A stretch of 64,000 nucleotides of DNA from Streptomyces graminofaciens (GTDB lineage: Bacteria; Actinomycetota; Actinomycetes; Streptomycetales; Streptomycetaceae). The notes under the pieces are model-generated. The model ran no database searches, had not been told where the DNA came from, and was given only the letters and a program-made list of their open reading frames with translations. A program made the translations under genes and the position numbers. The DNA lies in contig NZ_AP018448.1 in NCBI RefSeq assembly GCF_030294945.1, positions 1 to 64,000 of the forward strand. Reading direction: 5' to 3'. The stretch's first letter is position 1. The number at the start of each line of letters is the position of its first letter. Shown here piece after piece: positions 4,721-61,678 of the stretch.

Positions 4721-4750
4721 CCCCTCCGGCCAGGCCTCGCACGCACGAGC

Positions 4751-4775
4751 GGCCGGGCACCGACGGTGCCCGGCC
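4751..4775 (+). terminator. Intergenic hairpin after ParB-like gene
   Basis: GGCCGGGCACC and GGTGCCCGGCC form an 11-bp perfect stem with a GAC loop. There is no T-run, so this may be a processing or attenuating hairpin rather than a full terminator. A second short palindrome (TTGAGGACCTCAA, 4791-4803) overlaps the ribosome site of the next gene. Confidence 0.5.
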
Positions 4776-4813
4776 CCCAACCGCCCTGACTTGAGGACCT
4801 CAAGGAGTCCGTC

Positions 4814-5140
4814 ATGCCCAAGTCCGGCTCTGCTGAGCCCGAACCGCAGGAAGACCACGGATACCAGCCGCTCACCCTCGACGTGCTGCGGCAACTCGTC
4901 GGCAACGAGTGGGCCAGCCTTCCGGGCGAAACCCTGGTCGTGCTCTCCCGGGACGCCGACGGCAACGGCTACTCGCCGTTCAGGACGTACGCGCACGCAC
5001 GCTACTCCCCCACCCACGAGCTGACCGGCGAGGTCTACCCGCTGGAAAGCGAACTCGCGGAGTACGCCGACGTGCGTGACCTGCTCCCCAAGGTCCCCGA
5101 CAGCGCCCGCGCCGCGCTGGTGCTCTACCCGCTCGGCTGA
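4814..5140 (+). CDS. Unknown small acidic protein
   Basis: 108 residues, ATG 4814 with AAGGAG at 4802-4807. The N-terminus is acidic and hydrophilic, followed by LTLDVLRQLVGNEWASLPGET and a central VVLSRDADGNGYSP segment. No Cys, no membrane segment, no family recognised. It lies between two intergenic hairpins (4751-4775 and 5154-5181), like several other single genes in this region. Confidence 0.65.
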   Translation: MPKSGSAEPEPQEDHGYQPLTLDVLRQLVGNEWASLPGETLVVLSRDADGNGYSPFRTYAHARYSPTHELTGEVYPLESELAEYADVRDLLPKVPDSARAALVLYPLG

Positions 5141-5153
5141 CTGCCGTGGGCCC

Positions 5154-5181
5154 GGCGGGCACCGCACAGCCGGTGCCCGCC
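5154..5181 (+). terminator. Intergenic hairpin
   Basis: GGCGGGCACC and GGTGCCCGCC form a 10-bp perfect stem with an 8-nt loop, just after the stop codon at 5138-5140. No T-run follows. It resembles the hairpin at 4751-4775 in sequence (GGGCACC/GGTGCCC cores). Confidence 0.45.
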
Positions 5182-5262
5182 CCTCCGGCCTTCCGGCGCC
5201 GGTTCCCGGCCGGGCGTACCAGCGCCCGGCCCATCCCCCGCAACAGAAGAAGGGACACACTC

Positions 5263-5640
5263 ATGCCCACCCTTGCCGAGATCCGCGCCTTCGTCGGCCA
5301 ACTGTCGGAGGTCGGGCAGCTGGCCGCCGTTCAGGAGGCAGCTGCCGAGCGCCTGATCCAGATGGACGCCGCCAAGCGCCCGGTCATCGCCCCGGGCCGC
5401 ATCGGGCGGATCACCACCACGATCACCCCGGCCTGCCTGCGGCTGCTGACCGGCACCGTCCAGCAGCGCAACCGCACCGGAAGCCGCTTCGACTTCCTGC
5501 TCGACGAGGCCTCCACCGAGCGGCTGCGCCGGGACCCGAGCAACACCCGATTCCGCATCGCCGAAGACGAGAAGCGGTACCGGATCCCGAAGATCCCGGC
5601 CGCGTGCATCGAACTCACCGACGCCCCGGCCGAATCCTAG
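5263..5640 (+). CDS. Unknown protein
   Basis: 125 residues from ATG 5263, with AGAAGAAGGGA just upstream; the frame extends upstream to 5146 but that part overlaps the hairpin and has no ribosome site. The N-terminus is helical (LAEIRAFVGQLSEVGQLAAVQ), the middle holds PGRIGRITTTITPACLRLL, and the end is charged. No motif identified. Codon use is typical of the region. Confidence 0.6.
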   Translation: MPTLAEIRAFVGQLSEVGQLAAVQEAAAERLIQMDAAKRPVIAPGRIGRITTTITPACLRLLTGTVQQRNRTGSRFDFLLDEASTERLRRDPSNTRFRIAEDEKRYRIPKIPAACIELTDAPAES

Positions 5641-5648
5641 ACGGCACC

Positions 5649-5685
5649 GGGCCTGGGGGCAGCGCAGCGAGCTGCCCCCAGGCCC
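5649..5685 (+). terminator. Strong intergenic hairpin
   Basis: GGGCCTGGGGGCAGC (5649-5663) pairs perfectly with GCTGCCCCCAGGCCC (5671-5685) around a 7-nt loop, a 15-bp stem. It lies 8 bp after a stop codon. No T-run, so termination would be by hairpin alone or the structure stabilises the upstream transcript end. Confidence 0.6.
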
Positions 5686-5761
5686 GCGCCGACCAAGGCC
5701 CCGCCCAAGTCGCCTACCGGCCCACACACGCGTTTCGCCTGACCAGCATCGGAGCCACCCA

Positions 5762-6127
5762 GTGAACAGCAGCACCGCACCACTCGACACCGCCGCGCAG
5801 ATCGCCACCCAGGCACTTGCCGAACGAGGGATCCCCTCGTACACGGACGACGACGCCGGAAACTCATGGCTGGTCGTTGGCCTGCCCCAGAGCGCAGACA
5901 CCTCCCCCTCCAAGGGTGTCCGGCACGTGGTGCTCTACGTCGTCGACCCCTTCGGCGACCAGGACGAGGTGATGGTGGACCGCGCGCCCACCGGCCCCTC
6001 GGACCACTGGTGCGCCGTGTCCGTCGACAACAAGGGCGTGCAGCGCCCGCTGATCGCCCGGCCCATCCCCCAGTTGGCTGCCTGCATCGAAGCCATCGCC
6101 AACTGGCTCACGCCGCCCCCGGTCTGA
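5762..6127 (+). CDS. Unknown protein
   Basis: 121 residues from GTG 5762 (GGAG about 8 nt upstream). The sequence reads as a compact alpha/beta protein: an N-terminal helix (AAQIATQALAERGIPSY), alternating strands (SWLVVGLPQ, HVVLYVVDPFG, WCAVSVDNKG) and a final helix (LAACIEAIANWL). Not recognised. Located directly after the 15-bp hairpin. Confidence 0.65.
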   Translation: MNSSTAPLDTAAQIATQALAERGIPSYTDDDAGNSWLVVGLPQSADTSPSKGVRHVVLYVVDPFGDQDEVMVDRAPTGPSDHWCAVSVDNKGVQRPLIARPIPQLAACIEAIANWLTPPPV

Positions 6128-6200
6128 TCCGGCCCACAGCTTCCGCTCCCCGCGCCCAGACCGCCCGCATGACCAACCACCCGAAGGGACCGCGACTCCC

Positions 6201-6818
6201 ATGAGCCCAGCCATACCTGTGCGCTGCCTCGGCCGTCCGCTGGCCGGCGGACTGGTCGTGCCGTGGGTCTCCCTGATCCACAACGGGCACGCCGTGTTCG
6301 GCAGCCTCGACGCCGACCGCGCCCGCCGCGCCTTCCTCCAGCGTCTGTGCCAGATCTGCCGCCATCCGCTCCAGGAGCGGTTGTTCGTCATCGTCCGCCC
6401 CATCGACCAGCAGCAGGGCTACTCCCCCGAGCCCGGGCTACACCCGGAGTGCCTGCCGTACACCGCCGCCAACTGCCCCATGCTGAACGGCGCTGTCACG
6501 CACTACCGCACCCGCCCGGTGCTCGCCTCACACCCCGCGGGCCGGCCCTGCGCCGACCCGTCGTGCCCCTGCCCTGCACAGGCCCCCGACGAGGGGCACG
6601 CCGCCCGCAGCGGACGGCCCGCCGACCGGTACGAGGCATGGATGATCGCCGCCCGGCACTACCAGCTCGTCCCCCACCAGGAGGCGCCCGACGTCCCGGT
6701 CGGCATCAGCCTTAACGTGCCCGTCCTGCGCAAGCGCACGCTGCGCGAGGCCACTCTGCCCGCCGAACACGCTGCCGCGCCCGCCCTGTTGCGCATCGCC
6801 CTGGACTTGGAGCTCTAA
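6201..6818 (+). CDS. Conserved actinomycete mobile-element protein, Cys/His-rich
   Basis: 205 residues from ATG 6201. It carries LCQICRHPL, then LHPECLPYTAANCPM and CADPSCPCP, a spacing typical of a zinc-binding module in a family I recall as common on streptomycete phages and plasmids but without known function. The N-terminus (GRPLAGGLVVPWVSLIHNG) looks like a conserved beta segment. No membrane segments. Expressed with neighbours on the plus strand. Confidence 0.7.
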   Translation: MSPAIPVRCLGRPLAGGLVVPWVSLIHNGHAVFGSLDADRARRAFLQRLCQICRHPLQERLFVIVRPIDQQQGYSPEPGLHPECLPYTAANCPMLNGAVTHYRTRPVLASHPAGRPCADPSCPCPAQAPDEGHAARSGRPADRYEAWMIAARHYQLVPHQEAPDVPVGISLNVPVLRKRTLREATLPAEHAAAPALLRIALDLEL

Positions 6819-6878
6819 CCCCCGCCCGGCCTTGCGCGGGTCGGCACACCGACCAAGCCCACCAGGAATGAGGACTGC

Positions 6879-7169
6879 ATGCCCACCGACTACCCCGTGA
6901 CCCTCCCGCCCGTTCCCGACGAGCCCGAGACCGCCTGGCGAGCCCAGCGCGTGGGCGACACGGTCTTCGAGCGTCCGGACGAGGGCTGGCCCTCCGCCAC
7001 CACCACCTTCGCGATCGACGCCTCCAGCGCGGCCGAGGCCGAGCTGCGCGTGCTGGCGTGGATCCACCACAGCGACGAGGACGACCTTCGCCAGGCGACG
7101 GCAACCGCAGAGGGCCCGGCAGGTCCCGACCGCTGGCACGTCAGTCTCCGGATCCTCGGCGAGTTCTGA
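6879..7169 (+). CDS. Unknown small protein
   Basis: 96 residues from ATG 6879 with GAGGA just upstream. It is acidic, with a Pro-rich N-terminus and a core TTFAIDASSAAEAELRVLAWI. No motif recognised. A 7-bp hairpin (7218-7235) lies between it and the next gene. Confidence 0.6.
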   Translation: MPTDYPVTLPPVPDEPETAWRAQRVGDTVFERPDEGWPSATTTFAIDASSAAEAELRVLAWIHHSDEDDLRQATATAEGPAGPDRWHVSLRILGEF

Positions 7170-7286
7170 CACACCCGTCAGGCCGGGCTCACTCGGCCGA
7201 CCCCCTGAATCAACCATCGGCCGGACGCCCGGCCGGGACGCGCCGCCGCAGGCCGTCCCATGACCCCACGAGCAGAGAGGCCCACA

Positions 7287-8225
7287 GTGATCATCGCCGA
7301 CCCGACCACGCCCGCAGGCGCGGCCGTCATCGAACTGCACCAGCAGCTCACCGAACTGGAAGAGAGGGCAGGCGAATGGCCCGGGGCGGATGTCGTCAGC
7401 ATCCTCGAACCCTGGCTGGAGCGGTTCGACTTCGCCACGGCCTCGGCGCCGGCTGTCGCCTTCATCGCACCGCGCCCGCCGGGCCAGGTCTGGCTGCTGC
7501 GCCGCTGGGACCGGCACGAGAACGACGTGCTGCTGTTCACCGACGAAGACACCGCCCTGGCCGAACTCGCGCGGCACGTGCGCAGTTCCTGGGCGAACCT
7601 CCTGGGCGAAGAAGACTTCCCCGACCAGCCGCCCACCGACGACCGCACGGCCGTGGACCTCTACTACGGGCCCGAGCGCAGCAACCTCCCGGACGAGGGT
7701 TACTCCCTCTACTGCGCCACCATCAGCGGATCCGGCCGTGCCCGCGTCGTGCCCCTGGACTTCCGATTCCCCGAGGCCGACGCCTGCGAGCAGGCCAATC
7801 GTGACGCCACCTTCCACCCGCAGACCGACGCGAACGACCTCCCGTGCACCGAGGTCGACGGCGTCCTGGTGTTCGTCTACCTCGACCACGAGCTCGGCGC
7901 CGTAGGGGTGTCGATCCACCTCGACAGCGCCGCCGAACGGCTCGTGCGGCCCGACGGAACGGTGCCGCTGCGCGTCAAGGTGGAGGACACCGTCGTGCTC
8001 GACGACAGTGGTGCGGAAGGCGCGCCGCGACCGCCCTTGCTGGACGAGTTGCTGAACGCGGCCGAGGCCGGCCAGCGGGAGGCGATCCGCGCGGCAGCCC
8101 TGGCCGCCGGGATCCTGTGGCACTGCCGGACCTGCCATTGGGACAACCCGGGTGCGGCAGTCTGCTGCGAGGGCCCCGGGCCCTGCCGGAAGCCCAAGCC
8201 CGCCGCAGAGCAGACCGCCGCGTAG
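7287..8225 (+). CDS. Unknown protein with C-terminal zinc-ribbon-like tail
   Basis: 312 residues. GTG 7287 is chosen because GAGAGG (7275-7280) lies 6 nt upstream; ATG 7260 is an in-frame alternative without a site. The body is acidic alpha/beta with several hydrophobic strands. The last 40 residues hold CRTCHWDNPGAAVCCEGPG followed by PCRK, which looks like a metal-binding ribbon. No family recognised. It is the last gene before promoter copy 3. Confidence 0.65.
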   Translation: MIIADPTTPAGAAVIELHQQLTELEERAGEWPGADVVSILEPWLERFDFATASAPAVAFIAPRPPGQVWLLRRWDRHENDVLLFTDEDTALAELARHVRSSWANLLGEEDFPDQPPTDDRTAVDLYYGPERSNLPDEGYSLYCATISGSGRARVVPLDFRFPEADACEQANRDATFHPQTDANDLPCTEVDGVLVFVYLDHELGAVGVSIHLDSAAERLVRPDGTVPLRVKVEDTVVLDDSGAEGAPRPPLLDELLNAAEAGQREAIRAAALAAGILWHCRTCHWDNPGAAVCCEGPGPCRKPKPAAEQTAA

Positions 8226-8290
8226 GCGAGGGGGAAGGCGGGCCGCGCAGGCGTAGGACTGCGGCCGGCCTCGCCGGGGGCGGGTGCTCC

Positions 8291-8350
8291 CATCCCGAAG
8301 GAAAAGGGGATGACACCCACCCTCGGTATCAGTATTATGGAACATGTCCG
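8291..8350 (+). promoter_or_regulatory. Promoter with inverted repeat and GGAACATGTC element (copy 3)
   Basis: TATTAT (8333-8338) is followed by GGAACATGTC (8339-8348), as in copies 1 and 2. A -35-like ATGACA or TGACAC lies at 8310-8316. A 6-bp inverted repeat (CATCCC 8291-8296, GGGATG 8307-8312) overlaps the -35, a different sequence but the same placement as the longer repeats of copies 1 and 2. It reads toward the SSB gene. Confidence 0.7.
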
Positions 8351-8400
8351 GGTGGCTCCCGGGCACTGCCCGCACGTTCGTCACATCGAGGAGTACCTCC

Positions 8401-8949
8401 ATGAGCGGAGAGACCGCCGCCGTCGTCCGTGGACGCGTGTACGGAACCGTGCGGCTGCGCCACACCGAACGCGGCACGCCCGCCGCCCGGTTCACCGTGG
8501 TACAGGTCCCACGCGAGTACGACCGGGCACGCGGCCAGTGGCGCGACGGGGAACCGGTCCCGGTCATCTGCACCGTCACCGGCCCTCTTGCCCGGCACGT
8601 CGCCGAGTGCCTCACCGACGCCGTGCACGTGATCGCCACCGGCAACGTGGCCCTGCGCGACAACGTGCTCCATCTCGACTCCGCCCAGGTCGGCGTGGAC
8701 CTCGCCCACCACGTCGCCTACATCGACGACACCCTGCCCGCCGTCCTCGCCGGACGCGCCCCCGCTCCGGCCCCGACCGCTGCGGCCACGCCCGAGCCCC
8801 CGCCCGCTCACCGCGCCGGAACGGCCCGCCCGGCCCCGGCAGGCCGCCCCGCCCAGGTTCCGGCAGCAGCGCCGGAGACCGACTGGTGGCGGTCCGCACC
8901 GCGCACGTCCTGGGACGCCGCCACCGCGCCCAGCCGCACCGGGCGCTGA
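8401..8949 (+). CDS. ssb: Single-stranded DNA-binding protein (SSB-like)
   Basis: 182 residues from ATG 8401; GAGGAG at 8388-8393 supports this start over upstream in-frame codons. Residues 1-115 fit the SSB OB-fold: VRGRVYGTVRLRHTERGTPAARFTVV, WRDGEPVPVICTVTGPLARHV, VIATGNVALRD. The Pro/Ala-rich linker and the C-terminus resemble SSB tails, but the usual acidic DDDIPF-type tip is absent (it ends in PSRTGR), suggesting it does not recruit host partners in the normal way. It heads the operon containing the DprA-like and PP-loop genes. Confidence 0.82.
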   Translation: MSGETAAVVRGRVYGTVRLRHTERGTPAARFTVVQVPREYDRARGQWRDGEPVPVICTVTGPLARHVAECLTDAVHVIATGNVALRDNVLHLDSAQVGVDLAHHVAYIDDTLPAVLAGRAPAPAPTAAATPEPPPAHRAGTARPAPAGRPAQVPAAAPETDWWRSAPRTSWDAATAPSRTGR

Positions 8950-9025
8950 CCGCGCCCTCGATCCACCACCGCCCATCGCTGCACCGGCATGCCCGCCAGC
9001 CGCAGCCCTGTCACGGAGGTTCGCC

Positions 9026-9868
9026 GTGCCCAGCCCCGCCCTGCCCGAACGCGCCGCCCGCGCCGCGCTCGCCGCCCACTTCACCCCGGCCGCACTCGCC
9101 GCCGAGCTCGCCCAGTCCTCCGCCCAGGAGGTCTGGGAGCAGCGCGTCCGCCACGACAACAGCGGACGCCTGGCGCAGTACAAGCCGACGGACGAACTCG
9201 CCAACGCGCAGCTGTCCTGCCAGTTCATCATCCCCTCGGATGAGAGCTGGCCCACCGCCCTGGCCGACCTCGGTCCCGACTGCCCGCTCGGCCTGTGGGC
9301 CCGCGGCGGCGACCAGCTGCCGCACCTCACCGCCAACGCCGTCACGGTGACCGGCAACCGCAACGCGACCGAGCAGGCCATCACCCGGGCGCAGGCCTTC
9401 GCCACCGCCGTCGCCGAGGCCGGTCACACGGTCACCGCGACACTCGCGTACGGCGTCGACGCAGCCGCCCACCGGGCCGCCGCCCTGGCCGGACGGGCAA
9501 CGCTCGCCGTCCTGCCACGCGGCCTGGACCGCGCCCACCCACACGACCACGCCCAGCTACTGAGCTCCGTCCCCGCGACCGGCGGCGCGGTGGTCAGCCT
9601 CTACCAGCCGGGCACCGCAGCCAGCGGCGCGACCCTCAGGGCCAGCGCCACCCTGCTCGCCGCGCTCGCACGCGCGGTGATCCTCATCGAGGCCATGGAC
9701 CACGCCGAGGCGGCGATGCACACCGCCGAGGTAGCCGCCGCCCTCAACCGGCACCTGCTCGCACCGCCCGCCACCGAGGACATCCGCGCCGACGGCAGCA
9801 CCCGCCTGCTCGCCGAGCAGCGCGCCGTCCTGGTCCCGGACCCCGCAGCGGCGCTCGCCCTGCTCTGA
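9026..9868 (+). CDS. DprA/Smf-like Rossmann-fold protein
   Basis: 280 residues from GTG 9026 (CGGAGG upstream). Residues about 65-240 match the DprA core: LWARGG, then VTGNRNAT near residue 108 (family: GSRxxT), TLAYGVDAAAHRAAL (family: SGxAxGID) and LPRGLDRAHPHDHAQLL (family: GxGxDxxYPxxN). DprA proteins bind single-stranded DNA and load RecA; together with the adjacent SSB this fits handling of incoming single-stranded plasmid DNA. Several signature glycines are replaced, so it is a divergent, mobile-element member. Nucleotide/lysine-decarboxylase-like alternatives of the same fold are possible. Confidence 0.75.
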   Translation: MPSPALPERAARAALAAHFTPAALAAELAQSSAQEVWEQRVRHDNSGRLAQYKPTDELANAQLSCQFIIPSDESWPTALADLGPDCPLGLWARGGDQLPHLTANAVTVTGNRNATEQAITRAQAFATAVAEAGHTVTATLAYGVDAAAHRAAALAGRATLAVLPRGLDRAHPHDHAQLLSSVPATGGAVVSLYQPGTAASGATLRASATLLAALARAVILIEAMDHAEAAMHTAEVAAALNRHLLAPPATEDIRADGSTRLLAEQRAVLVPDPAAALALL

Positions 9869-53374: not shown

Positions 53375-53998
53375 TTGAGCTCCATCCCACAGGCCCCGAC
53401 GTCGGAGCCAGCGCGATGCCTGGCGACCGACGAGGTCATCACCGACGCTCTGCGCGGGCGGATCCTCCACGGTGCCTACGCCATCACAAGGCCGCTGCCC
53501 GACACGGCACGGCTTGCAGCCGAGTTCGGCCTGCCCAAGGAGGTGATCGCCACGGCGCTGCGGGCGCTCGCCAACGAGGGCACGGTGTGCGATGTGCCCG
53601 GTCAGGGGATGTTCGTCGCCCGGCTGCCCCGTCTTGAGTCTGCTGAGGCTGCAGCCGAGCGGGTGGAGACGATCCTGCGGACGCGGCTGGAGCACGGCGT
53701 GTACCCCGTCAGTACCTGGTTCCCGGCCCAGGCGAGGCTCCTCGACGAGTTCGGCGTGACCCTGTACGTCCTGCTCAACGTGATCGCCAAGCTCGTGGAT
53801 GGCGGGCTCCTCAGCACAGTCACCTCCCGCGGCCGGATCGTCCTGGACCCGCAGGGCCCCAGACCCCGGCCTAAGGACACGAGGAGGCCGCCAAGGCGGA
53901 GCCGGAGCGGTACGTCCGCCGCGCGATCGAAGAGGGCACGTATCCCCTGCACTCACAGATTCCGTCGCGGCAGAGCCTCGGGGAGAAGTACGGGCTGA
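53375..53998 (+). CDS. GntR-like multi-HTH regulator, probably frameshifted
   Basis: 207 residues from TTG 53375. Two GntR-type winged helices: VITDALRGRILHGAYAITRP plus DTARLAAEFGLPKEVIATAL (first), and ETILRTRLEHGVYPVSTWF plus RLLDEFGVTLYVLLNVIAKL (second). After about residue 165 the frame turns into Arg/Ser-rich nonsense. In the overlapping frame, EEAAKAEPERYVRRAIEEGT and RQSLGEKYGLTAYQAGLAL (53881-54040) form a clear third GntR module, so a single-base change near 53870-53880 seems to have broken the gene. Without it the protein would run on toward the kinase-like domain at 54058. Confidence 0.72.
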   Translation: MSSIPQAPTSEPARCLATDEVITDALRGRILHGAYAITRPLPDTARLAAEFGLPKEVIATALRALANEGTVCDVPGQGMFVARLPRLESAEAAAERVETILRTRLEHGVYPVSTWFPAQARLLDEFGVTLYVLLNVIAKLVDGGLLSTVTSRGRIVLDPQGPRPRPKDTRRPPRRSRSGTSAARSKRARIPCTHRFRRGRASGRSTG

Positions 53999-54057
53999 CC
54001 GCCTACCAGGCGGGGTTGGCCCTGAAGCCCCTGGTGAGCCACCTGGAAGAGGAACCA

Positions 54058-54606
54058 GTGGACGAGTACGACGACGCCGCCGCGGAGGTGGCCCGGAACT
54101 GGAGCGAGCCCCAGCCGGTCTCCGGGACCGAGCCGGGAACGGGAGGGTCGACGGCGCCGCTGGTGCCGTATCTCGGGGTGACGTGGACGCTCGACGGCCG
54201 GGACCCGCGCACGCCCGCCGAGGCCCGTCACCGGGTCGCCGAGGGGTGCCGTCTGTGGCGTGTCCCGATGCTGGTTGCCGACGACCTCACGCTGATCGTG
54301 TCCGAACTCGCGACCAACGCGGTGACGCACACGAAGAGTTCCGAGATCGAGGTGAGCCTCTACCTCACCGGCGAGCAGGTCTGCGTGGTCGTGACCGACC
54401 AGAGCGCCTACCGGACGCTTTCGGCCCGGCAGGCCGGAGCGGACGCGGAGGGCGGCCGGGGGCTGGTGCTGGTCGAGGCCCTGGCGACCCGGTGGGAGAG
54501 CTTCCCCACGGCCTGCGGCACCGCCGTGCGGGCCCACATCGCCCTCCCCCCAGAACACCGCACAGCCCCCCACACCCCCGAGGACACTTTCGATGCACGC
54601 CGCTGA
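54058..54606 (+). CDS. RsbW-like ATP-binding protein (HATPase)
   Basis: 182 residues from GTG 54058, preceded by GAAGAGGAA. Histidine-kinase-like ATPase motifs: LTLIVSELATNAVTHTKSSE (N box with Glu, Asn and His), VCVVVTDQS (G1, modified DxG) and EGGRGLVLVEALATRW (G2). These small proteins act as anti-sigma kinases or partner proteins in streptomycetes. The frame is open upstream and contains the third GntR module, so a fusion is possible (see the GntR entry). Overlaps the next gene by 14 nt. Confidence 0.78.
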   Translation: MDEYDDAAAEVARNWSEPQPVSGTEPGTGGSTAPLVPYLGVTWTLDGRDPRTPAEARHRVAEGCRLWRVPMLVADDLTLIVSELATNAVTHTKSSEIEVSLYLTGEQVCVVVTDQSAYRTLSARQAGADAEGGRGLVLVEALATRWESFPTACGTAVRAHIALPPEHRTAPHTPEDTFDARR

Positions 54607-55012
54607 CGACACGCTCGCGCTCTCTGCCGTGCATGCGGCGGGACCGGCCCGCATGCAGGGCGAATACCTGCGCTGGACCTGGCCCGTGGGCCCCGGGACG
54701 GAAGATCTGGTGCGCACCGTCACAGAGGCGTTCACCCACTGGGGTTTCACGCCGTCTGTCGCCGACCTCCTCGGTGATCTCGCGTGGGAGTTCGCCGGGA
54801 GCTTCCGGCGCAGCCCCTACGTGAAGGTCGCCGTCGGGTGGGCCGATCACCAGGCGATGGTCAGCGTGCGCAGTGCCGAGAGCCTCACGAGCGCCGAGTC
54901 TGCGATGAGCCTCCAGCCCCGTCCCTCGACCTGGGGCGTATGCGGATATGTAGGCGGCACGGACGCGTTCGCCGTCGTCCGACTCGCGCGGCGGATTCCC
55001 CGGATCGACTGA
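54593..55012 (+). CDS. Degenerate HATPase-like partner
   Basis: 139 residues from ATG 54593, inside the end of the previous gene. VADLLGDLAWEFAGSFRRSP and YVKVAVGWADHQAMVSVRSA align by eye with the helix and strands of the preceding ATPase, but the Asn of the N box and the glycine-rich loops are missing, suggesting a non-catalytic paralogue that could dimerise with it. It immediately precedes the RiPP-like cluster. Confidence 0.6.
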   Translation: MHAADDTLALSAVHAAGPARMQGEYLRWTWPVGPGTEDLVRTVTEAFTHWGFTPSVADLLGDLAWEFAGSFRRSPYVKVAVGWADHQAMVSVRSAESLTSAESAMSLQPRPSTWGVCGYVGGTDAFAVVRLARRIPRID

Positions 55013-55137: not shown

Positions 55138-55245
55138 ATGGAAGCCAAGTCGCAGGCCGCCGCCAGGACCTCGACCACGCAGACGCCCGAGAACCTCGCC
55201 ACCGAAGAGGTGGTCATCGCGGTCGACGTCGACGACGAGGAGTAG
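55138..55245 (+). CDS. Putative RiPP precursor peptide
   Basis: A 35-residue frame from ATG 55138 with a strong ribosome site (AGAAGGAG, 6 nt upstream). The N-terminal part (MEAKSQAAARTSTTQTPENL) is hydrophilic and leader-like; the C-terminus ATEEVVIAVDVDDEE is an alternating hydrophobic/acidic core candidate. It has no Cys and only Ser/Thr in the leader. It stands directly upstream of TfuA and YcaO, enzymes that together make backbone thioamides. Small size, location and the following hairpin all fit a precursor; a leader/core boundary near LATEE is a guess. Confidence 0.72.
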   Translation: MEAKSQAAARTSTTQTPENLATEEVVIAVDVDDEE

Positions 55246-55267
55246 TCCTCACCGCTAGTTCTCACCT

Positions 55268-55309
55268 GGGCGCCCTTCTCCGGCCGACGGTGGCCGGGGA
55301 AGGGCGCCC
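55268..55309 (+). terminator. Hairpin between precursor and biosynthetic genes
   Basis: GGGCGCCCTTCTCCGGCC (55268-55285) pairs with GGCCGGGGAAGGGCGCCC (55292-55309): 18 bp with one T-G wobble and a 6-nt loop. It follows the precursor stop by 22 bp and ends 23 bp before the TfuA start. Such partial terminators let the precursor mRNA exceed that of the enzymes. Confidence 0.75.
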
Positions 55310-55332
55310 GCCCTTTCGAGGAGGTTTCAGCA

Positions 55333-56571
55333 GTGATCCATGTATTTGCCGGGCCGACCCTGTCCCGGCCTGAGCCGTTACTGACAGCGCCCCAGGTACG
55401 GTCCCGGCCGCCGGTGCGGCACGGCGACCTGTTCCCCGAGTCGGTCCCCGACGGCGACACGGCGGTGATCATCGACGGGCTGTACCACCAGGCCCCCGCG
55501 CTGCGGCACAAGGAGATCATCGCGGCGATGGCCCGCGGGGTCCGGGTGATCGGGGCGGCGAGCATCGGCGCCCTGCGGGCGGCCGAACTCGCGCCGTACG
55601 GGATGCGCGGCATCGGCACCATCTACCGCGGGTACGCCGTCGGCGCCCTGTGCGGGGATGACGAGGTGGCGGTGGGGCAGGCCCCGGACGGCCAGGAGGA
55701 GTCACTGACGTGGCCGCTGGTCAACCTCAGGTACATCCTGAAGACGGCCACCGCACGCGGCATCGTCGGCCCGGAGCAGGCAGATGTGCTCCTGGAGGCC
55801 CTGCGGGAGGTCTACTACCCGCAGCGCACCCGGGCCGCGGTGCGGGCCGTGTCCCGCACCTGCGGCGAGGAGCAGTTCGACCGGTGGCTGACCGAACGCC
55901 GCCGGCGCAACCCGCACTTCGGTGACCTCAAGCGGGCCGAGGCACTCAGCGCGGTCCGGGCCGCCCTGCGCAGCCCGCACCGCGGGGCCCCTGCCGAGGA
56001 GCCGCCGGTATGGCGGACGGTGCACTTCCAGCGCTGGTCAAACACCTTCGCCCGCTCACGGGTTGACGGGCTAGACCTGGCCACCGAGGACCGGCTGATC
56101 TATCAACAGGCGTTCGCCCCGGAGTTCACGCGGACGTGGACGGCCTACCTCGAACACCGCTCGCTGCGTCCCCAGCACGGGCCGGGACTGCCGCTCGGCG
56201 CCCGGCTGCAGCAGGTCACCGGCCAGGGCGGGTCTCTCGCCGCGCATCAGGTGTTCCACCCGGCCATCGACCTACGCGACGAGGAGACCGTGGCCCTGCT
56301 GCTGGCCGAGGAGACACCCGAGGACCGCCAGGCGGTCGCCCGGTACGCCGAGGCCCTGAACCGGGTGCGCCGCAGTGTGGCGGGGTTCTCGACCGCGGCC
56401 GTGTGCGACGACCTCACCGGCCGCACGCTCCGGCAGATCTGGCGGTGCCCGGCCGGTGATTTCGACACCGTCGCGTCCGCGCGGGGACTGGTCAGCGGGG
56501 CCCGCGCCGTCGAGGCGGCGAAGCGGCTGATGCCCGGATTCATGGACGAGCGGACGGAGGCGGCCCGTTGA
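55333..56571 (+). CDS. tfuA: TfuA-like protein
   Basis: 412 residues from GTG 55333 (GAGGAGG upstream). The N-terminal 150 residues are characteristic of the TfuA core: VFAGPTLSRPE, PPVRHGDLF, AVIIDGLYHQAPALRHKEII, RVIGAASIGALRAAELAPYG and GIGTIYRGYAVGALCGDDEV. TfuA proteins partner with YcaO enzymes in peptide thioamidation, as in thiovarsolin-type RiPPs and methyl-coenzyme M reductase, probably supplying sulfur. The C-terminal about 250 residues are an extra domain found in actinomycete members. The gene ends overlapping the YcaO start. Confidence 0.88.
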   Translation: MIHVFAGPTLSRPEPLLTAPQVRSRPPVRHGDLFPESVPDGDTAVIIDGLYHQAPALRHKEIIAAMARGVRVIGAASIGALRAAELAPYGMRGIGTIYRGYAVGALCGDDEVAVGQAPDGQEESLTWPLVNLRYILKTATARGIVGPEQADVLLEALREVYYPQRTRAAVRAVSRTCGEEQFDRWLTERRRRNPHFGDLKRAEALSAVRAALRSPHRGAPAEEPPVWRTVHFQRWSNTFARSRVDGLDLATEDRLIYQQAFAPEFTRTWTAYLEHRSLRPQHGPGLPLGARLQQVTGQGGSLAAHQVFHPAIDLRDEETVALLLAEETPEDRQAVARYAEALNRVRRSVAGFSTAAVCDDLTGRTLRQIWRCPAGDFDTVASARGLVSGARAVEAAKRLMPGFMDERTEAAR

Positions 56572-57716
56572 GGCGCGAGGACGACATGGCGGTCCTGCCG
56601 GGCACCCTGCGGGCCCGGGGCCCCGAGGAGACATGGCAGGCCCTGGCCCCCTATCTGCCGGGGTTCGGGATCACCCGCGTGGCCCGGCTGACCGGCCTGG
56701 ACTGCATCGGAGTGCCGGTGTGGACAGCGATCCGGCCCGCCTCCCTGACCCTGACCACCTCCCAGGGCAAAGGCCTGACCGACGGCCTGGCGCGGCTGTC
56801 GGCGGTCATGGAGGCCATCGAGCTGTGGCACGTGGAGCAGCCCCTGCCCATCGCCGCGGCTGGCCCGGCCGCGGAAGTCGCCCCCGACTGCCCCGTCGCC
56901 GACCTGCCGCTGACCGTCCCCCACAGCGCGGATGTACTCGCCCGCATCGCGTGGGAGTGGACGCCCGGCACCCACCTGATCAGCGGCGAGCCGGCCGTGG
57001 TGCCGGTCGATCTGGTCCGCCGCCGCGCCCAGCGGCCCGAGTGGGCCCCTGATCTGCTGCGGGCGACCAGCACCGGCCTGGCGTGCGGCAGCACCCGCGA
57101 CGAGGCGCTGTTGCACGCGCTGTACGAGGTCGTCGAGCGCGACGTGCTGTACCGGGACGGGTGGAGCGGCGGGCGGAACCGGATACTGATCGCCCCGCAC
57201 ACCGTCACCGACCCCGACGCCCGGGAGGTGATCAACCGGCTCCTCGACGCAGGGATGGGGCTGGAGTTCTTCCTCGTCGACGGGCCGTACGGGCTTCCGG
57301 TGTGCGTGGCCTACCTGTGGTCGGAGGACCACCCGCAGGTGTTCGCCGGCGGCGGCTGCCACGCCCGCCCCGGCATCGCGGCCACCCGCGCCCTGACCGA
57401 GGCCGCCCAGTCCCGCGCGGCCGTCATCGCCGGCACCCGCGACGACCTGCCCAGCGACAGCCCCGATTTCGGCAGCCTGCCGCACCGGCCGGCCACAGCA
57501 CGCTCGGCGATGCCGTGGCCGCAGGCGACAGCCCACTTCCCGTCGCCCCTAGGCGGGTTCACCGGCCACATCGGGGAGGTGGCCGAGCGGATCGAGATCG
57601 TCACCGGGCACGACCCGGTGGTCCTGGACCTGTCCGCGCCGGGCCTGCCCGTCCACACGGTGCAGGCCGTCTGTCCCGGCACCCGCTCACGGATCAGGAG
57701 GGCGATGCCCCGATGA
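56568..57716 (+). CDS. ycaO: YcaO cyclodehydratase/thioamidase-like enzyme
   Basis: 382 residues from TTG 56568 (TTGA overlap, GGAGG 7 nt upstream); ATG 56586 is an alternative. YcaO ATP-binding features are intact: SQGKG (65-69), E82 and E85 in SAVMEAIELW, then STGLACGSTRDEALLHALYE (168-187) with E187, E190, R191. With TfuA it should activate backbone amides with ATP and install sulfur. No heterocyclisation partner (E1-like or dehydrogenase of azole type) is nearby and the precursor lacks Cys, so thioamide formation is the likelier reaction. Ends overlapping the methyltransferase start. Confidence 0.87.
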   Translation: MRREDDMAVLPGTLRARGPEETWQALAPYLPGFGITRVARLTGLDCIGVPVWTAIRPASLTLTTSQGKGLTDGLARLSAVMEAIELWHVEQPLPIAAAGPAAEVAPDCPVADLPLTVPHSADVLARIAWEWTPGTHLISGEPAVVPVDLVRRRAQRPEWAPDLLRATSTGLACGSTRDEALLHALYEVVERDVLYRDGWSGGRNRILIAPHTVTDPDAREVINRLLDAGMGLEFFLVDGPYGLPVCVAYLWSEDHPQVFAGGGCHARPGIAATRALTEAAQSRAAVIAGTRDDLPSDSPDFGSLPHRPATARSAMPWPQATAHFPSPLGGFTGHIGEVAERIEIVTGHDPVVLDLSAPGLPVHTVQAVCPGTRSRIRRAMPR

Positions 57717-58591
57717 CACACCCCACCGCGCGCCAGCCCGCGCCCCTGCCGCCCACCGAAGACCCCGCGGACCACTTCGACGCCTTCCACGCCGCGCGGG
57801 CCCGCACCGATCTCGTCGCCCGCCTGTACGAGGCGGCGATGGGCGAGGACTACCCGCACGAAGTCAACGCCTCCACCTCGTGTGACTGGCCCCTGCTCGG
57901 GCTGATGACGACCCGGCTGCGGATGCGTCCCGGGCAGAGGCTCGTGGACGCGGGATGCGGCACCGGCGGGATCGGGCTGTGGCTGGCCCGCGCCCTGAAC
58001 GCCCGCCTGGAGGGCATCGACATCTCACCCGTCGCCCTCGCCCGCGCGACCAGGCGCCGCAGCCGGTTCGTGCCCGCCGACCGCGCCGCCTTCCACGTCG
58101 CCTCAATCGACGCAACCGGCCTGCCCGACCGTCACGCCCACGGCATCATCTGCATCGACGCCCTCAGCTTCACCCAGGACCGCGGCAAGGCGGTCCGCGA
58201 GCTGGGCCGCATCCTCGCGCCCGGCGGCCGCCTCACCCTCACCCGGTCCCTGCGCCCGGGCGCCGAACCCGCCTGGGAGGAGCAGGCCCATGCGGCCGGC
58301 CTCACCGTGGAGCACATCGACGAACGCCCCGGCGAACCGGCCATGTGGGAGCGGCTCTACCGGCTGTGGCTCGCGCACGCCGACGACCTGCACCGCGAAC
58401 TCGGCGACCAGGCGCGGTTCATGCTCCACGAGGCGCGCCGGATGCTGCCCGCCCTGAACGGCCGCCGCGCGGTACTGCTGACCCTGCGACGCCCCCCGAC
58501 GCCACACGCAGAGGACGAGGAGGCCGATAGGATGCCCGAGCCCGGCCGCCGCGCGGAGGGCACTGTGACCAGCGAGAGGACCCCGCAGTGA
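57713..58591 (+). CDS. Class I SAM methyltransferase
   Basis: 292 residues from ATG 57713 (ATGA overlap). Motif I LVDAGCGTGGIGLWLA at about residue 77, EGIDISPVALARAT (motif II acid), IICIDALSFTQD and ILAPGGRLTLTRSL (motif III) define a small-molecule-type Rossmann methyltransferase. The N-terminus (TEDPADHFDAFHAARARTDL) resembles ubiquinone/sarcosine methyltransferases. It could methylate the peptide (N- or O-) or a small co-substrate; its C-terminal 40 residues are charged and disordered. Overlaps the next gene. Confidence 0.82.
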   Translation: MTHPTARQPAPLPPTEDPADHFDAFHAARARTDLVARLYEAAMGEDYPHEVNASTSCDWPLLGLMTTRLRMRPGQRLVDAGCGTGGIGLWLARALNARLEGIDISPVALARATRRRSRFVPADRAAFHVASIDATGLPDRHAHGIICIDALSFTQDRGKAVRELGRILAPGGRLTLTRSLRPGAEPAWEEQAHAAGLTVEHIDERPGEPAMWERLYRLWLAHADDLHRELGDQARFMLHEARRMLPALNGRRAVLLTLRRPPTPHAEDEEADRMPEPGRRAEGTVTSERTPQ

Positions 58592-59601
58592 GCCAGCGCA
58601 AGCACAGCCGCGCGGCGGTGTTCTCGGCCGGGTCCTGGGGCACGGCCGTCGCCAAAATCATGGCGGACGCCGGCAGCCGGGTCACCGTACACGCCCGCCG
58701 CCCCGAGATCGCCGACGCGATCAACATCCGGCACCGCAACCCGGCCTACTTCCCCGAGACCGAGCTTCCCGCTCTGCTCACGGCCACGACCGAGCCGGCG
58801 GCCGCCCTGGACGGCGCGGACTTCCTGGTCCTGTCCATTCCCGCGCAGGCTCTGCGCGAGAACCTGACCGCGTGGGCGCCGCTCATCGCAGCGGACACCG
58901 TGGTCGTGTCGCTGATGAAGGGCATCGAGACCGCAAGCGGCAAGCGCGCCAGTCAGATCATCGCCGAGGTGACCGGCATCGGCGCGGAGCGGATCGCGGT
59001 GCTGTCCGGGCCGAACCTGGCGGGCGAGATCATGCAGGGCCAGCCAGCGGCCGCCACGGTGGCCTGCCCGGACGACAGCGTCGCCCGACGCGTCCAGACG
59101 GCCTGTCTCACCCCGTACTTCCGGCCCTACACCAGCACCGACGTCGTCGGCTGCGAGATGGGCGGCGCGGTCAAGAACGTCATCGCGCTCGCCGTGGGCA
59201 TCGCGGCCGGCATGGGTATGGGCCACAACGCCACCGCCATGCTCATCACCCGCGGACTGGCGGAGACCACCCGCCTGGCCGTGGCCATGGGCGCCAGCCC
59301 GGTCACCCTCGCGGGACTGGCCGGACTCGGCGACCTCGTGGCCACGTGTTCCTCACCGCGTTCACGCAACCGCACCTTCGGCACCCACCTGGGCCAGGGC
59401 ATGAGCGTCGAGGAGGCCACAGCCGCCACCCGGCAGACCACCGAAGGCGTCAAGTCCGCAGGGGCCGTCCTCGAACTCGCCCGCGCCCACGGCGTCGAGA
59501 TGCCGATCACGGACATCGTCTCTGCACTCCTGCACGAGAAGGTCACGCTCGATGAGGCCGCCGCCGCACTCATGCAGCGGCCCCCCAAGCCCGAGCACTG
59601 A
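58588..59601 (+). CDS. GpsA-type NAD(P)-dependent glycerol-3-phosphate dehydrogenase paralogue
   Basis: 337 residues from GTG 58588. VFSAGSWGTAVAKIM (nucleotide-binding loop, first Gly of GAGSWGT replaced by Ser), LVLSIPAQALRENL, VSLMKGIETASGKR, VLSGPNLAGEI, GGAVKNVIALAVGIAAGMG (catalytic Lys near 195) and GLAGLGDLVATCSSPRSRN cover the whole family. The length is standard. In a RiPP-like cluster it could supply or use a glycerol-phosphate-type substrate, or have a new oxidoreductase role. Overlap with the methyltransferase ties it to the operon. Confidence 0.85.
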   Translation: MSQRKHSRAAVFSAGSWGTAVAKIMADAGSRVTVHARRPEIADAINIRHRNPAYFPETELPALLTATTEPAAALDGADFLVLSIPAQALRENLTAWAPLIAADTVVVSLMKGIETASGKRASQIIAEVTGIGAERIAVLSGPNLAGEIMQGQPAAATVACPDDSVARRVQTACLTPYFRPYTSTDVVGCEMGGAVKNVIALAVGIAAGMGMGHNATAMLITRGLAETTRLAVAMGASPVTLAGLAGLGDLVATCSSPRSRNRTFGTHLGQGMSVEEATAATRQTTEGVKSAGAVLELARAHGVEMPITDIVSALLHEKVTLDEAAAALMQRPPKPEH

Positions 59602-59668
59602 CCCCCGGGCGCCCCTCGCGCAGCGCCCCTCACCACGTCACCCTCCCCATCACGGAGGCCCCTTTCCC

Positions 59669-60022
59669 ATGCACGCCACACCTGTGCCGTCCGCTGTCCA
59701 ACTCGCCGTCACCGCCGCCCTCGTGGGCTGGATGCTCACCGGGTTCACCCACCTGCCCGGCAGGTGGCTGCGCTGGAAAATGTTCTGCCGCGCCCGCTTC
59801 ACGATCATCACCCTCGACGGCACCAAGAACGGCCACACCGAACCGGTGAACCCCTACCGCTACCTCTCCCCAGGCAGCTTCCTCCTCAGCCCCGAACGGC
59901 TCCAGACGATCATCACCCACCTGACCCGCCCCGGCGGGTACGACCGGATCGACGGCCGCGGACGAGTCCTCTCCACGCAGGGCGAGCAGCCGATCGAGGT
60001 GATTGACAGTGTGGTTCGTTGA
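59669..60022 (+). CDS. Small protein paired with HTTM protein
   Basis: 117 residues from ATG 59669 (CACGGAGG upstream). A short hydrophobic start (AVTAALVGWMLTGFTHLP) is followed by GRWLRWKMFCRARFTIITLD, a WKMF-type motif like those next to or inside HTTM proteins, then NPYRYLSPGSFLL and a final domain. It overlaps the HTTM gene by 14 nt, so the two are translated together and may form one complex. Precise role unknown. Confidence 0.65.
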   Translation: MHATPVPSAVQLAVTAALVGWMLTGFTHLPGRWLRWKMFCRARFTIITLDGTKNGHTEPVNPYRYLSPGSFLLSPERLQTIITHLTRPGGYDRIDGRGRVLSTQGEQPIEVIDSVVR

Positions 60023-60863
60023 CGCCCTCGCCTCCGGGTTCCAGCACCCCACCGATCCCGGACGGCTCCACCTGTTCCGCATCCTCTACGGCACCGTCTG
60101 CACCCTGCGGTTCGCCCTCTCCTTCGGCCAGGGCGGATGGGACCGGTTCGCCCCCGGCTCACTCAGCACCCACACCGCCGAGCAGCGCTACGGCCCCGCA
60201 CGGGCCCGGTGCCTGAGCGGCGCCTACCGGCCCGTGCTGATCGCCCGCACGATGGCGGCCGCCGCCTTCGCGGCGGGTCTGGCGCCCCGGGCGGCGCTCG
60301 TGATGGTCCTGGCCGGTGCCGCGATGGAGCTGTGCTACCTCAAGAGCCCCAACGCCGTGCGCTACACCCTGCTCACCGGCGGCTGCCTCCTCGTCGCCGG
60401 CGACCTCGGCCGCGGACCGGCGATCGAGCACGGCTCCAGCACGGCCAACACCTGGGCACTGTGTCTCCTCGTGCTGATCACCACCGACGTCTACTGGAAC
60501 AGCGCCTGGCACAAACTCCGCTCACCACAGTTCCGCACCGGCCTGTACCTGGCTCAATGGGTCCACACCTACACTCAAGTCAAGGACCGGCTTCCCTACC
60601 GGGGCCAGCACGCCATCCCCGGCCCCGTCCGCCGCCACATGGGCAACCTCAACAGTCGTGACGTCCGGCTGTGGCGTCTGGTCGCCGCGACCGTCATCAC
60701 CGCGGAGATCGCCCTGCCACCCGCCCTGCTCATCGAACAGACCACGCCCTACGCCATCACCGCCGGCATCACCATGCACGCCGCCTTCACCTGCCTCAAG
60801 CCCCGCCAACTCATCACCTTCTCCAGCCTCACCGCCGGCACCTACACAGCCTTCGCCCCCTGA
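60009..60863 (+). CDS. HTTM (vitamin-K-dependent carboxylase-like) membrane protein
   Basis: 284 residues. GTG 60009 is 7 nt after GAGGTG; TTG 60003 is another in-frame option. Six or so hydrophobic segments with LHLFRILYGTVCTLRFAL at the start and TTDVYWNSAWHKLRSPQFRTG near residue 165 (the Tyr..Trp..Lys signature of HTTM domains). The HTTM family includes vitamin-K-dependent gamma-glutamyl carboxylase, and many bacterial members have unknown substrates. Since the putative core is Glu/Asp-rich, peptide modification is conceivable; no evidence of carboxylase catalytic residues beyond the fold. Confidence 0.75.
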   Translation: MWFVDALASGFQHPTDPGRLHLFRILYGTVCTLRFALSFGQGGWDRFAPGSLSTHTAEQRYGPARARCLSGAYRPVLIARTMAAAAFAAGLAPRAALVMVLAGAAMELCYLKSPNAVRYTLLTGGCLLVAGDLGRGPAIEHGSSTANTWALCLLVLITTDVYWNSAWHKLRSPQFRTGLYLAQWVHTYTQVKDRLPYRGQHAIPGPVRRHMGNLNSRDVRLWRLVAATVITAEIALPPALLIEQTTPYAITAGITMHAAFTCLKPRQLITFSSLTAGTYTAFAP

Positions 60864-60976: not shown

Positions 60977-61678
60977 TTAAGACGGGTGGTACGCGCTCAC
61001 CAGCAGGGTGTCGGCGGTGCGAGGCCCGCCGGTGGCGGCGGGCAGCACGTCAACAGTGATGTCGGTAAATCCGGCCTCGTCGAGCAGCTTGGTCCACACG
61101 TGCTCCTGGAGGACCCAGCGGCGCATTGTGGTGGTTCGGCCGTCCGGTGTCTTTGCCGGAATGTCGGCGGCCGTGGCATCGGGCTGGGCAGGTGCCCCGT
61201 TCAGGTAGTGGGCGAGGGTTGCGAACACCAGTCGTCCGCCCGGCTTGAGGGCGGCGGCCGCCGCAGGCAGCAGCTCGCGCGGGTCGGTGAAGTCCACGGC
61301 GCCGAAGACGCTGTACAACACGTCGTACGCGCACGTCATCGCCTGCAGGTGGGGCACCGCGTCGGACTGCACGATGCGCAGGCGCGGAGCGAGGTGGGCA
61401 TAGAGGTCGGCTGCCATGGCGTGCTGGGCGGGCGAGGCGTCGACGGCGACGATCCGGGCCGGCTGGTGATGGACGGCCAGGTGCGCTGCATGCCGGGATG
61501 TGCCGGCGCCGAGGTCGCCCACACAGCGGCCGGTCACCTCACCGAGGACCTCGGGACCGGGCCCGGCGTCCTGGCCCCAACTCCAGTAGAAGGTGCCGGG
61601 AACGGCGCGGTCACTGGTGGCGCGGGCGCGGCCGTAGTGGTGCCAGAGGTCTGCGGTGCTGGTGGTCACCCGGACCAT
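60977..61678 (-). CDS. Class I SAM methyltransferase
   Basis: 233 residues on the minus strand from ATG 61678 (GTG 61669 is an alternative, in frame). Motif I CVGDLGAGTSRHAAHLA near residue 52, IVAVDASPAQHAMA (motif II), DVLYSVFGAVDFTDP and ALKPGGRLVFATLAH. Convergent with the HTTM gene; a weak 8-bp hairpin (60889-60923) lies between them. It could serve the RiPP-like cluster or belong to the regulator unit to its right. Confidence 0.78.
   Translation of the reverse strand: MVRVTTSTADLWHHYGRARATSDRAVPGTFYWSWGQDAGPGPEVLGEVTGRCVGDLGAGTSRHAAHLAVHHQPARIVAVDASPAQHAMAADLYAHLAPRLRIVQSDAVPHLQAMTCAYDVLYSVFGAVDFTDPRELLPAAAAALKPGGRLVFATLAHYLNGAPAQPDATAADIPAKTPDGRTTTMRRWVLQEHVWTKLLDEAGFTDITVDVLPAATGGPRTADTLLVSAYHPS

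Follow-up and report, generated by a model that had tools for sequence, protein, structure and literature searches.

Why should an operon for a ribosomally synthesised and post-translationally modified peptide (RiPP) carry a glycerol-3-phosphate dehydrogenase of the housekeeping type? The question is raised by the start of Streptomyces graminofaciens contig NZ_AP018448.1, where the window (the whole stretch of DNA that was analysed, 64,000 nucleotides) covers the first 64 kb of a genome assembled as a single contig of 11.6 Mb. An operon at 55138-60863, with all genes on the + strand, contains in this order a precursor peptide gene, a hairpin, tfuA, ycaO, a methyltransferase gene, gpsA, the gene of a small protein and that of an HTTM-like membrane protein. 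GpsA feeds phospholipid synthesis in bacteria. The answer proposed here, to which a probability of about 0.38 is given, is that a thioamidated, methylated acidic peptide would inhibit GpsA and so block phospholipid supply, that a resistant gpsA was recruited to the cluster, perhaps twice, and that non-producers keep it as immunity. For the central part, namely that the cluster GpsA serves as a self-resistance copy of the target, the chances are considered to be about even, and this role is placed ahead of a biosynthetic one.

Relatives of the operon were collected by searching PLSDB plasmids and genome contigs at the protein level, and loci were scored by means of a tblastn table. The cluster family occurs in Streptomyces and Embleya, and is often plasmid-borne. 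Thirty-eight loci of types A and B were counted, each holding tfuA, ycaO, the methyltransferase gene and at least a partial type A or B gpsA; three of them (L078, L110 and L114) have a GpsA that exactly duplicates that of another row. A test for intactness as a single stretch was passed by all six enzyme and membrane genes in 22 of the 38. Seven are type B, which is without the small and HTTM genes (L006, L016 and L065-L069), and nine are type A loci that are cut by a contig end or have tfuA, gpsA, small or HTTM broken or missing (L009, L011, L017, L021, L023, L024, L035, L109 and L110). Loci added later are type B L133, type D L134-L136, L138 (whose contig ends inside the methyltransferase gene) and type B L143; type D is likewise without the small and HTTM genes. 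Type C consists of L070 (Streptomyces anulatus NBC_00535 plasmid, 4145-9849), in which a more distant tfuA-ycaO pair is followed by a methyltransferase, a P450 and then the small and HTTM genes; its precursor was not clearly identified.

Among the genes of the cluster, GpsA alone recurs intact on its own many times; some lineages have retained it and others have not. Intact GpsA without tfuA was found in 19 loci (18 in the main table, plus L139). Genes or pieces of genes for the methyltransferase, YcaO, small or HTTM proteins are retained beside gpsA in 13 of the 18, and L105, L106, L107, L111 and L113 have none; one orphan (L112, genome G013) has an uncertain start, since a stop lies within the first codons matched. 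The orphans are dispersed across the type A clade, and the cluster/orphan label requires at least 14 changes on the tree. The ratio of nonsynonymous to synonymous substitution rates (dN/dS) was low, 0.04-0.32 in 14 chosen pairs that include an orphan and 0.13-0.23 in three in-cluster pairs. An orphan gpsA as substitute for a lost housekeeping copy was ruled out, all ten orphan genomes checked holding both.

Frequencies were compared among 392 Streptomyces genomes. Type A GpsA (E <= 1e-140) is present in 17 of them, seven with the cluster (8 loci) and ten without, the two gpsA copies of genome G254 being counted as one. YcaO at a minimum of 65% identity over the full length gave 8 loci, none outside type A clusters, and the methyltransferase at a minimum of 60% over the full length gave 8 loci, all of them type A clusters. 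A Fisher test of GpsA (10 orphan and 8 in-cluster loci) against YcaO (0 and 8) gave p = 0.008, and on plasmids 8 of 35 full-length GpsA records (at least 62% identity; partial records H87 and H88 omitted) were without TfuA, against none of 27 TfuA records (at least 46%) without GpsA (p = 0.007); both tests treat related loci as independent, and several plasmid records are near-copies. The search for orphans was seeded with GpsA, a bias which the comparison with YcaO, methyltransferase and HTTM in the same genomes lessens and does not remove.

Outside the clusters, remnants of type A YcaO are all broken (G231, G019, G242 and G062), and those of the methyltransferase are fragments in G242 and G052 and, in G367, a truncated gene next to an orphan GpsA of type B. 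An intact type A HTTM lies outside the cluster once (G275, L080). YcaO at 48-56% is intact in seven genomes, five of which (G193, G300, G152, G256 and G090) carry a type B or D set with gpsA; the other two are G028, cut by a contig end, and G173 (the L026 locus), with tfuA-ycaO and without this methyltransferase or gpsA. Second copies of gpsA were also observed. In G254 orphan genes lie near both contig ends in opposite orientation (G254:C1:91919-92917 and G254:C1:11447916-11448914), as expected for terminal inverted repeats, and on the NBC_00455 plasmid (L061) the set gpsA-small-HTTM occurs a second time at 7001-9227, some 30 kb away from tfuA-ycaO; the GpsA of this second copy is nearly identical to that of the cluster on a sister plasmid (L003).

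The window GpsA (58588..59601, +, 337 aa) is 61% identical to the housekeeping copy of the same genome (G000:C1:4577969-4578964). It is a member of the family by its score (NF000942, 447.9 bits for a cut-off of 257) and keeps the conserved active-site columns. In a 67-sequence alignment, 84 columns are invariant both in 15 housekeeping and in the in-cluster GpsA, among them K111, K196, N197, D249, T253, R260 and N261, which we take to be the dihydroxyacetone phosphate site; six of the 84 deviate, each in one of the 18 orphans. GpsA is intact in 36 of the 38 type A/B loci (a contig end cuts it in L017, and L024 has one stop) as well as in L133-L136 and L143, and in every type A, B or D set that is readable past the methyltransferase gene, gpsA comes next. 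At a 90% threshold, no column is fixed differently between housekeeping and cluster copies; from a relaxed list that includes H35, M149, T157, L241 and T285, none of these five holds across A, B and D together. GpsA of types A and B stand on one branch separate from the housekeeping copies (support 99/95 and 99/97; the second GpsA tree took 16 of the 44 type A rows). The three type D rows group within the housekeeping copies of Streptomyces (support of that set 99/100). This suggests a separate recruitment, so that type D clusters may have acquired gpsA on their own into the same kind of cluster.

Since GpsA looks intact and has in several lineages outlived the pathway, a role in self-resistance suits it better than one in tailoring. 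The features expected of such a copy were found here, namely a second copy of the enzyme in the cluster with the housekeeping copy elsewhere in the genome, and retention without the biosynthetic genes (the 19 loci above, to which there are counter-examples).

That the operon makes a RiPP at all is indicated by its first gene. The precursor gene (55138..55245, +) encodes 35 aa, MEAKSQAAARTSTTQTPENLATEEVVIAVDVDDEE, behind the Shine-Dalgarno sequence AAGGAGAAG, and shares with the family an N-terminal KS/SKS and a C-terminal VVxAxDVxDEE. A homologous acidic short open reading frame (ORF) with its own Shine-Dalgarno sequence lies 69-170 bases 5' of tfuA in 36 of the 38 loci, those without it being L017, whose contig begins about 200 bases before tfuA, and L021; five of five further type B/D loci (L133-L136 and L138) also have one, 41-151 bases before tfuA. 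The co-occurrence of the precursor with related clusters, on which the sequence-only reading had staked its proposal, is thus borne out. The N-terminus is mostly M-x-(x)-SKS or close to it, with L022 deviating, and the most conserved segment is the C-terminal VVxxEDVExE. Most type A precursors end in VVVAVDVEDEE and most type B precursors in VVRIEDVEDEGP; type D ends in VVRSEDVEQEECYTF or a near variant, L005 and L013 in VVVAEDVENDDPFVPA, and L024 in DLVLAEDVEQEW. After removal of six rows (L021 and L070, not of the same family, and four repeats), the last 11 residues match V[VI][VI]AxDVxDEE in 20 of 32 precursors, and at several invariant residues two or three synonymous codons are used. No repeat was seen in the window precursor, as judged by eye. 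Since the gene order recurs in many records and precursor homologues are present in 36 of the 38 loci, the arrangement is more than chance, and we are confident that this is a RiPP operon with a genuine precursor.

Between the precursor gene and tfuA stands a G+C-rich hairpin (55267..55310, +) with a 19-bp stem. The 87-base gap folds at -51.3 kcal/mol (RNAfold), with z = -5.1 against 60 mononucleotide shuffles, and the fold of this gap has z <= -2.0 in 28 of 32 loci (the exceptions being L003, L015, L018 and L066), such shuffles being a rough control. The hairpin is probably a partial terminator or attenuator, or a 3' stabiliser.

TfuA (55333..56571, +, 412 aa) has its domain at residues 48-166 and a long C-terminal extension, matches PF07812 with 143.4 bits (cut-off 30), and gave PDB 6xp8 in the search of solved structures. 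YcaO (56568..57716, +, 382 aa) matches PF02624 with 196.9 bits (cut-off 25.7), has 6pe3 (MJ1094) as its nearest solved structure, and is the sole YcaO match in the genome. Both scores exceed curated cut-offs and the two genes overlap by 4 bp, in agreement with the initial assignment of a RiPP cluster with an adjacent TfuA-YcaO pair. The class I S-adenosylmethionine-dependent methyltransferase (57713..58591, +, 292 aa) matches PF13649 with 59.5 bits (cut-off 27); its nearest solved structure is MitM (8zc8), and the searches of solved structures, Pfam and NCBIfam gave only generic leads for it. These three proteins and GpsA score well above their Pfam cut-offs, and GpsA also exceeds its NCBIfam subfamily cut-off. 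Overlaps of 4 bp also join ycaO to the methyltransferase gene and the latter to gpsA.

YcaO proteins also participate in the formation of azolines and amidines, so that one may ask whether the pair makes another backbone change (for example an amidine or azoline), or whether the short ORF is a carrier or regulator with the true substrate elsewhere. The type A C-terminus VVVAVDVEDEE contains no Cys, Ser or Thr for an azoline, and the short ORF is kept in 36 of 38 loci with codons varying at invariant residues. As the TfuA-YcaO gene pair is tied to thioamidation in the portions available of PMC8120280 and PMC13185837, such alternatives are held to be very improbable. Thioamide formation by TfuA-YcaO on the precursor is predicted with good confidence, and the family of the methyltransferase points to peptide methylation as a likely further step.

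The sequence of events proposed is as follows. The precursor would be made first, and the hairpin would probably reduce the transcripts that reach the enzyme genes. TfuA and YcaO would be expected, from their families, to replace oxygen by sulfur in backbone amides of the Val/Ala-rich C-terminal core, and the methyltransferase, again from its family, to attach one or more methyl groups. In type A, the small and HTTM-like membrane proteins might next act as an optional module of maturation or export. GpsA would stand outside the peptide chemistry, as a product-insensitive second copy of the housekeeping glycerol-3-phosphate dehydrogenase, which would be the likely target of a toxic product, and would protect the producer; lineages that lost the biosynthetic genes would have kept it as immunity.

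Two other roles of GpsA have to be weighed. The enzyme could be biosynthetic, contributing to a decoration through a supply of glycerol-3-phosphate or through NAD(P)(H) turnover, or re-purposed to reduce or oxidise the modified peptide. This would suit a gpsA that lies directly 3' of the methyltransferase gene in types A, B and D (with the 4-bp overlap in the window), that has been lost along with other genes in many decayed loci, and whose position in type A is taken by a P450 in type C, as if tailoring enzymes were swapped. We consider it less likely than self-resistance, given that the host already owns a gpsA, that intact GpsA persists in the 19 loci without tfuA, and that the residues invariant in housekeeping GpsA are retained, so that a new substrate is not indicated. 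Type B operons, moreover, terminate at gpsA with no further gene common to the annotated records, and there is therefore no evident user of extra glycerol-3-phosphate. It is still less probable that the extra GpsA is kept for an advantage in metabolism (in the supply of phospholipid, or in redox or osmotic balance) and that its RiPP neighbourhood reflects shared mobility: most orphans are indeed intact with low dN/dS and many copies are plasmid-borne, but type A GpsA is rare (17 of 392 genomes), and the enzyme adjoins the same methyltransferase in three subtypes, into which it was perhaps recruited more than once.

The self-resistance reading itself meets several contrary observations, besides the limits stated above for the Fisher tests and for the GpsA-seeded search. 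Only broken or fragmentary type A HTTM is held outside a complete cluster by 14 of the 392 genomes, and type A GpsA (E 1e-140) accompanies it in three (G131, G254 and G296) and is missing from 11 (G052, G065, G142, G160, G250, G262, G292, G306, G365, G377 and G378), the loci inspected among these 11, in G365 (L083) and G160 (L075), having no gpsA. L140 and L141 are wreckage of ycaO or the methyltransferase gene without gpsA, L083 retains only an HTTM fragment, L080 has a broken gpsA next to its intact HTTM, and plasmid records H87 and H88 hold partial GpsA matches only. The TfuA-YcaO pair of L026 (= L142), 45% and 54% identical to that of the window, is without this methyltransferase or gpsA. 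The 4-bp overlap of gpsA with the methyltransferase gene is equally to be expected of a pathway enzyme. An approximately unbiased test does not reject a single origin of the A, B and D GpsA (p = 0.154), and no GpsA substitution is common to all types, H35 replacing W in A and B and not in D, and T285 occurring in A only.

The last two genes of the operon raise a separate question. The small protein (59669..60022, +, 117 aa), which accompanies the HTTM-like gene, follows gpsA after a gap of 67 bp and overlaps by 14 bp the gene of the HTTM/MauE-like membrane protein (60009..60863, +, 284 aa). All the elements that had been named from the sequence were recovered as one compact operon at 55138-60863, with corrected starts for these two genes: the small gene begins at 59669, and GTG 60009 is a more probable start of the HTTM-like gene than TTG 60003. 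The small protein had no Pfam or NCBIfam match, and its AlphaFold2 model is modest (mean predicted local distance difference test, pLDDT, 69.9), with N-terminal helices and a beta-rich remainder. PF05090 (HTTM) is matched weakly by all seven aligned members (best E 4.8e-4; window protein E 0.15 and 12.0 bits, cut-off 27.7), as is MauE by all seven (best E 1.5e-5; window protein below the cut-off). The HTTM domain is known from the enzyme of vitamin-K-type gamma-carboxylation. Gamma-carboxylation of the Glu-rich tail by this protein was rejected, since the match lies below the cut-off, the fold model is poor (pLDDT 47), and the acidic motif is also present in types B and D, where the pair is missing.

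The small and HTTM genes occur together in types A and C, the latter being the TfuA-YcaO-P450 cluster. Distant pairs lie in three further loci: in L072 and L073 the neighbour is a protein of TIGR03975, RiPP maturation radical SAM C-methyltransferase (607 and 619 bits for a cut-off of 282), and in L074 the neighbours are DUF5825 and a methyltransferase. The HTTM part of these three is 26-33% identical to that of the window over the matched stretch; the small protein of L074 shares 67% identity with that of L072, 71% with that of L073 and 29% with that of the window (E 5e-8). By analogy with these other RiPP-type clusters, the pair may be an optional module of RiPP maturation or export. The sequence-only reading had made GpsA and the HTTM pair joint decorators of the peptide, and this did not hold up. 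A single decoration module was rejected because each part occurs without the other: gpsA is present and the pair absent in types B and D, and in type C and the radical-SAM loci the stretch examined has the pair and no cluster-type gpsA.

A number of neighbouring and related loci were also noted. L072 (3159-7792), L073 (3030-6894) and L074 (7933-10610) may represent a further RiPP family, with a methyltransferase in L072 and L074. In Streptomyces sp. NBC_00249, the tfuA-ycaO pair of L026 (6744-11889) is followed by delta-aminolevulinate dehydratase, a methyltransferase and porphobilinogen deaminase, other housekeeping-type genes beside TfuA-YcaO. In L029, L030 and L137, a distant ycaO-tfuA pair in reversed order is accompanied by a methyltransferase that shares about 50% identity with the one in the window, with no gpsA in the stretch examined. 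Upstream of the operon, the window has a GntR-type regulator (53375-53998) and an ORF at 54016-55012, presumably an ATP-binding anti-sigma-like protein from its resemblance to such proteins, and in some plasmid relatives an 'ATP-binding protein' and short ORFs precede the operon. Just 3' of the operon, on the - strand (60977-61678), lies a second class I methyltransferase, which was not seen in the conserved set.

If the proposal is true, a GpsA-inhibiting peptide would be the first known natural product with that target; to our knowledge no natural product has GpsA as its target, and no natural antibiotic against GpsA was found among the matches listed. If self-resistance is right, the cluster reveals its own target, a panel of natural resistance genes for testing is already at hand in the orphan GpsA copies, and a mass to search for follows from the conserved VVxxEDVExE core. 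Should GpsA be biosynthetic instead, the need of a TfuA-YcaO pathway for a glycerol-3-phosphate dehydrogenase would represent new chemistry. That the small and HTTM pair recurs both in TfuA-YcaO and in radical-SAM RiPP-type clusters suggests a common uncharacterised membrane step.

Literature pairing RiPP, YcaO, TfuA, thioamide, HTTM or self-resistance with glycerol-3-phosphate dehydrogenase gave no case of the kind among the matches listed. A gpsA in a RiPP cluster appears in none of the available portions of PMC6511847, PMC8120280, PMC13185837, PMC9927463 and PMC8510958, and a term search found 'gpsA' absent from the main texts of PMC8120280 and PMC8510958. The gene set had been put forward as new for thioamide RiPPs, and this part stands, no such set being described in the literature covered (mostly without subscription papers and supplements); the joint decoration claimed with it has been set aside above.

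Among known systems, the thioamitides (thioviridamide, thiostreptamide S4) have the TfuA-YcaO pair and a C-terminal core in common with the operon. Thioamitide clusters carry dehydratase/kinase and decarboxylase genes; unlike them, the operon has no lanthipeptide-type dehydratase, kinase or decarboxylase among its proteins, and its type A core is without Ser, Thr or Cys. Thiovarsolins are likewise made with TfuA-YcaO in Streptomyces, but the operon has no repeating core, VarO-like (heme-oxygenase-like) protein or amidinotransferase such as the available portions of PMC6511847 and PMC8120280 describe. The actinobacterial TfuA-YcaO clusters surveyed by RiPPER (PMC6511847) also have adjacent tfuA and ycaO and a short precursor that opens a conserved operon; in a term search of the main text of that paper, 'methyltransferase' and 'HTTM' do not occur, 'glycerol' occurs in the methods only and 'dehydrogenase' for VarO only. 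The present family may be its uncharacterised "Network 2", which may already list these precursors. An HTTM protein of unclear role, crdG, is described in the available part of PMC9927463 for the linaridin cluster of corynaridin, which, like the operon here, is a RiPP cluster with no protease gene; compared with it, the window protein is paired with a separate 117-aa protein and lies below the Pfam HTTM cut-off. The closest parallel for GpsA is resistant-target duplication, as sought by ARTS and similar tools. Known cases of it include none with GpsA among the matches listed, and insensitivity would here be a predicted property; the likeness lies in a second copy of a housekeeping enzyme within the cluster, a housekeeping copy retained, and a cluster copy kept in places after the pathway has been lost.

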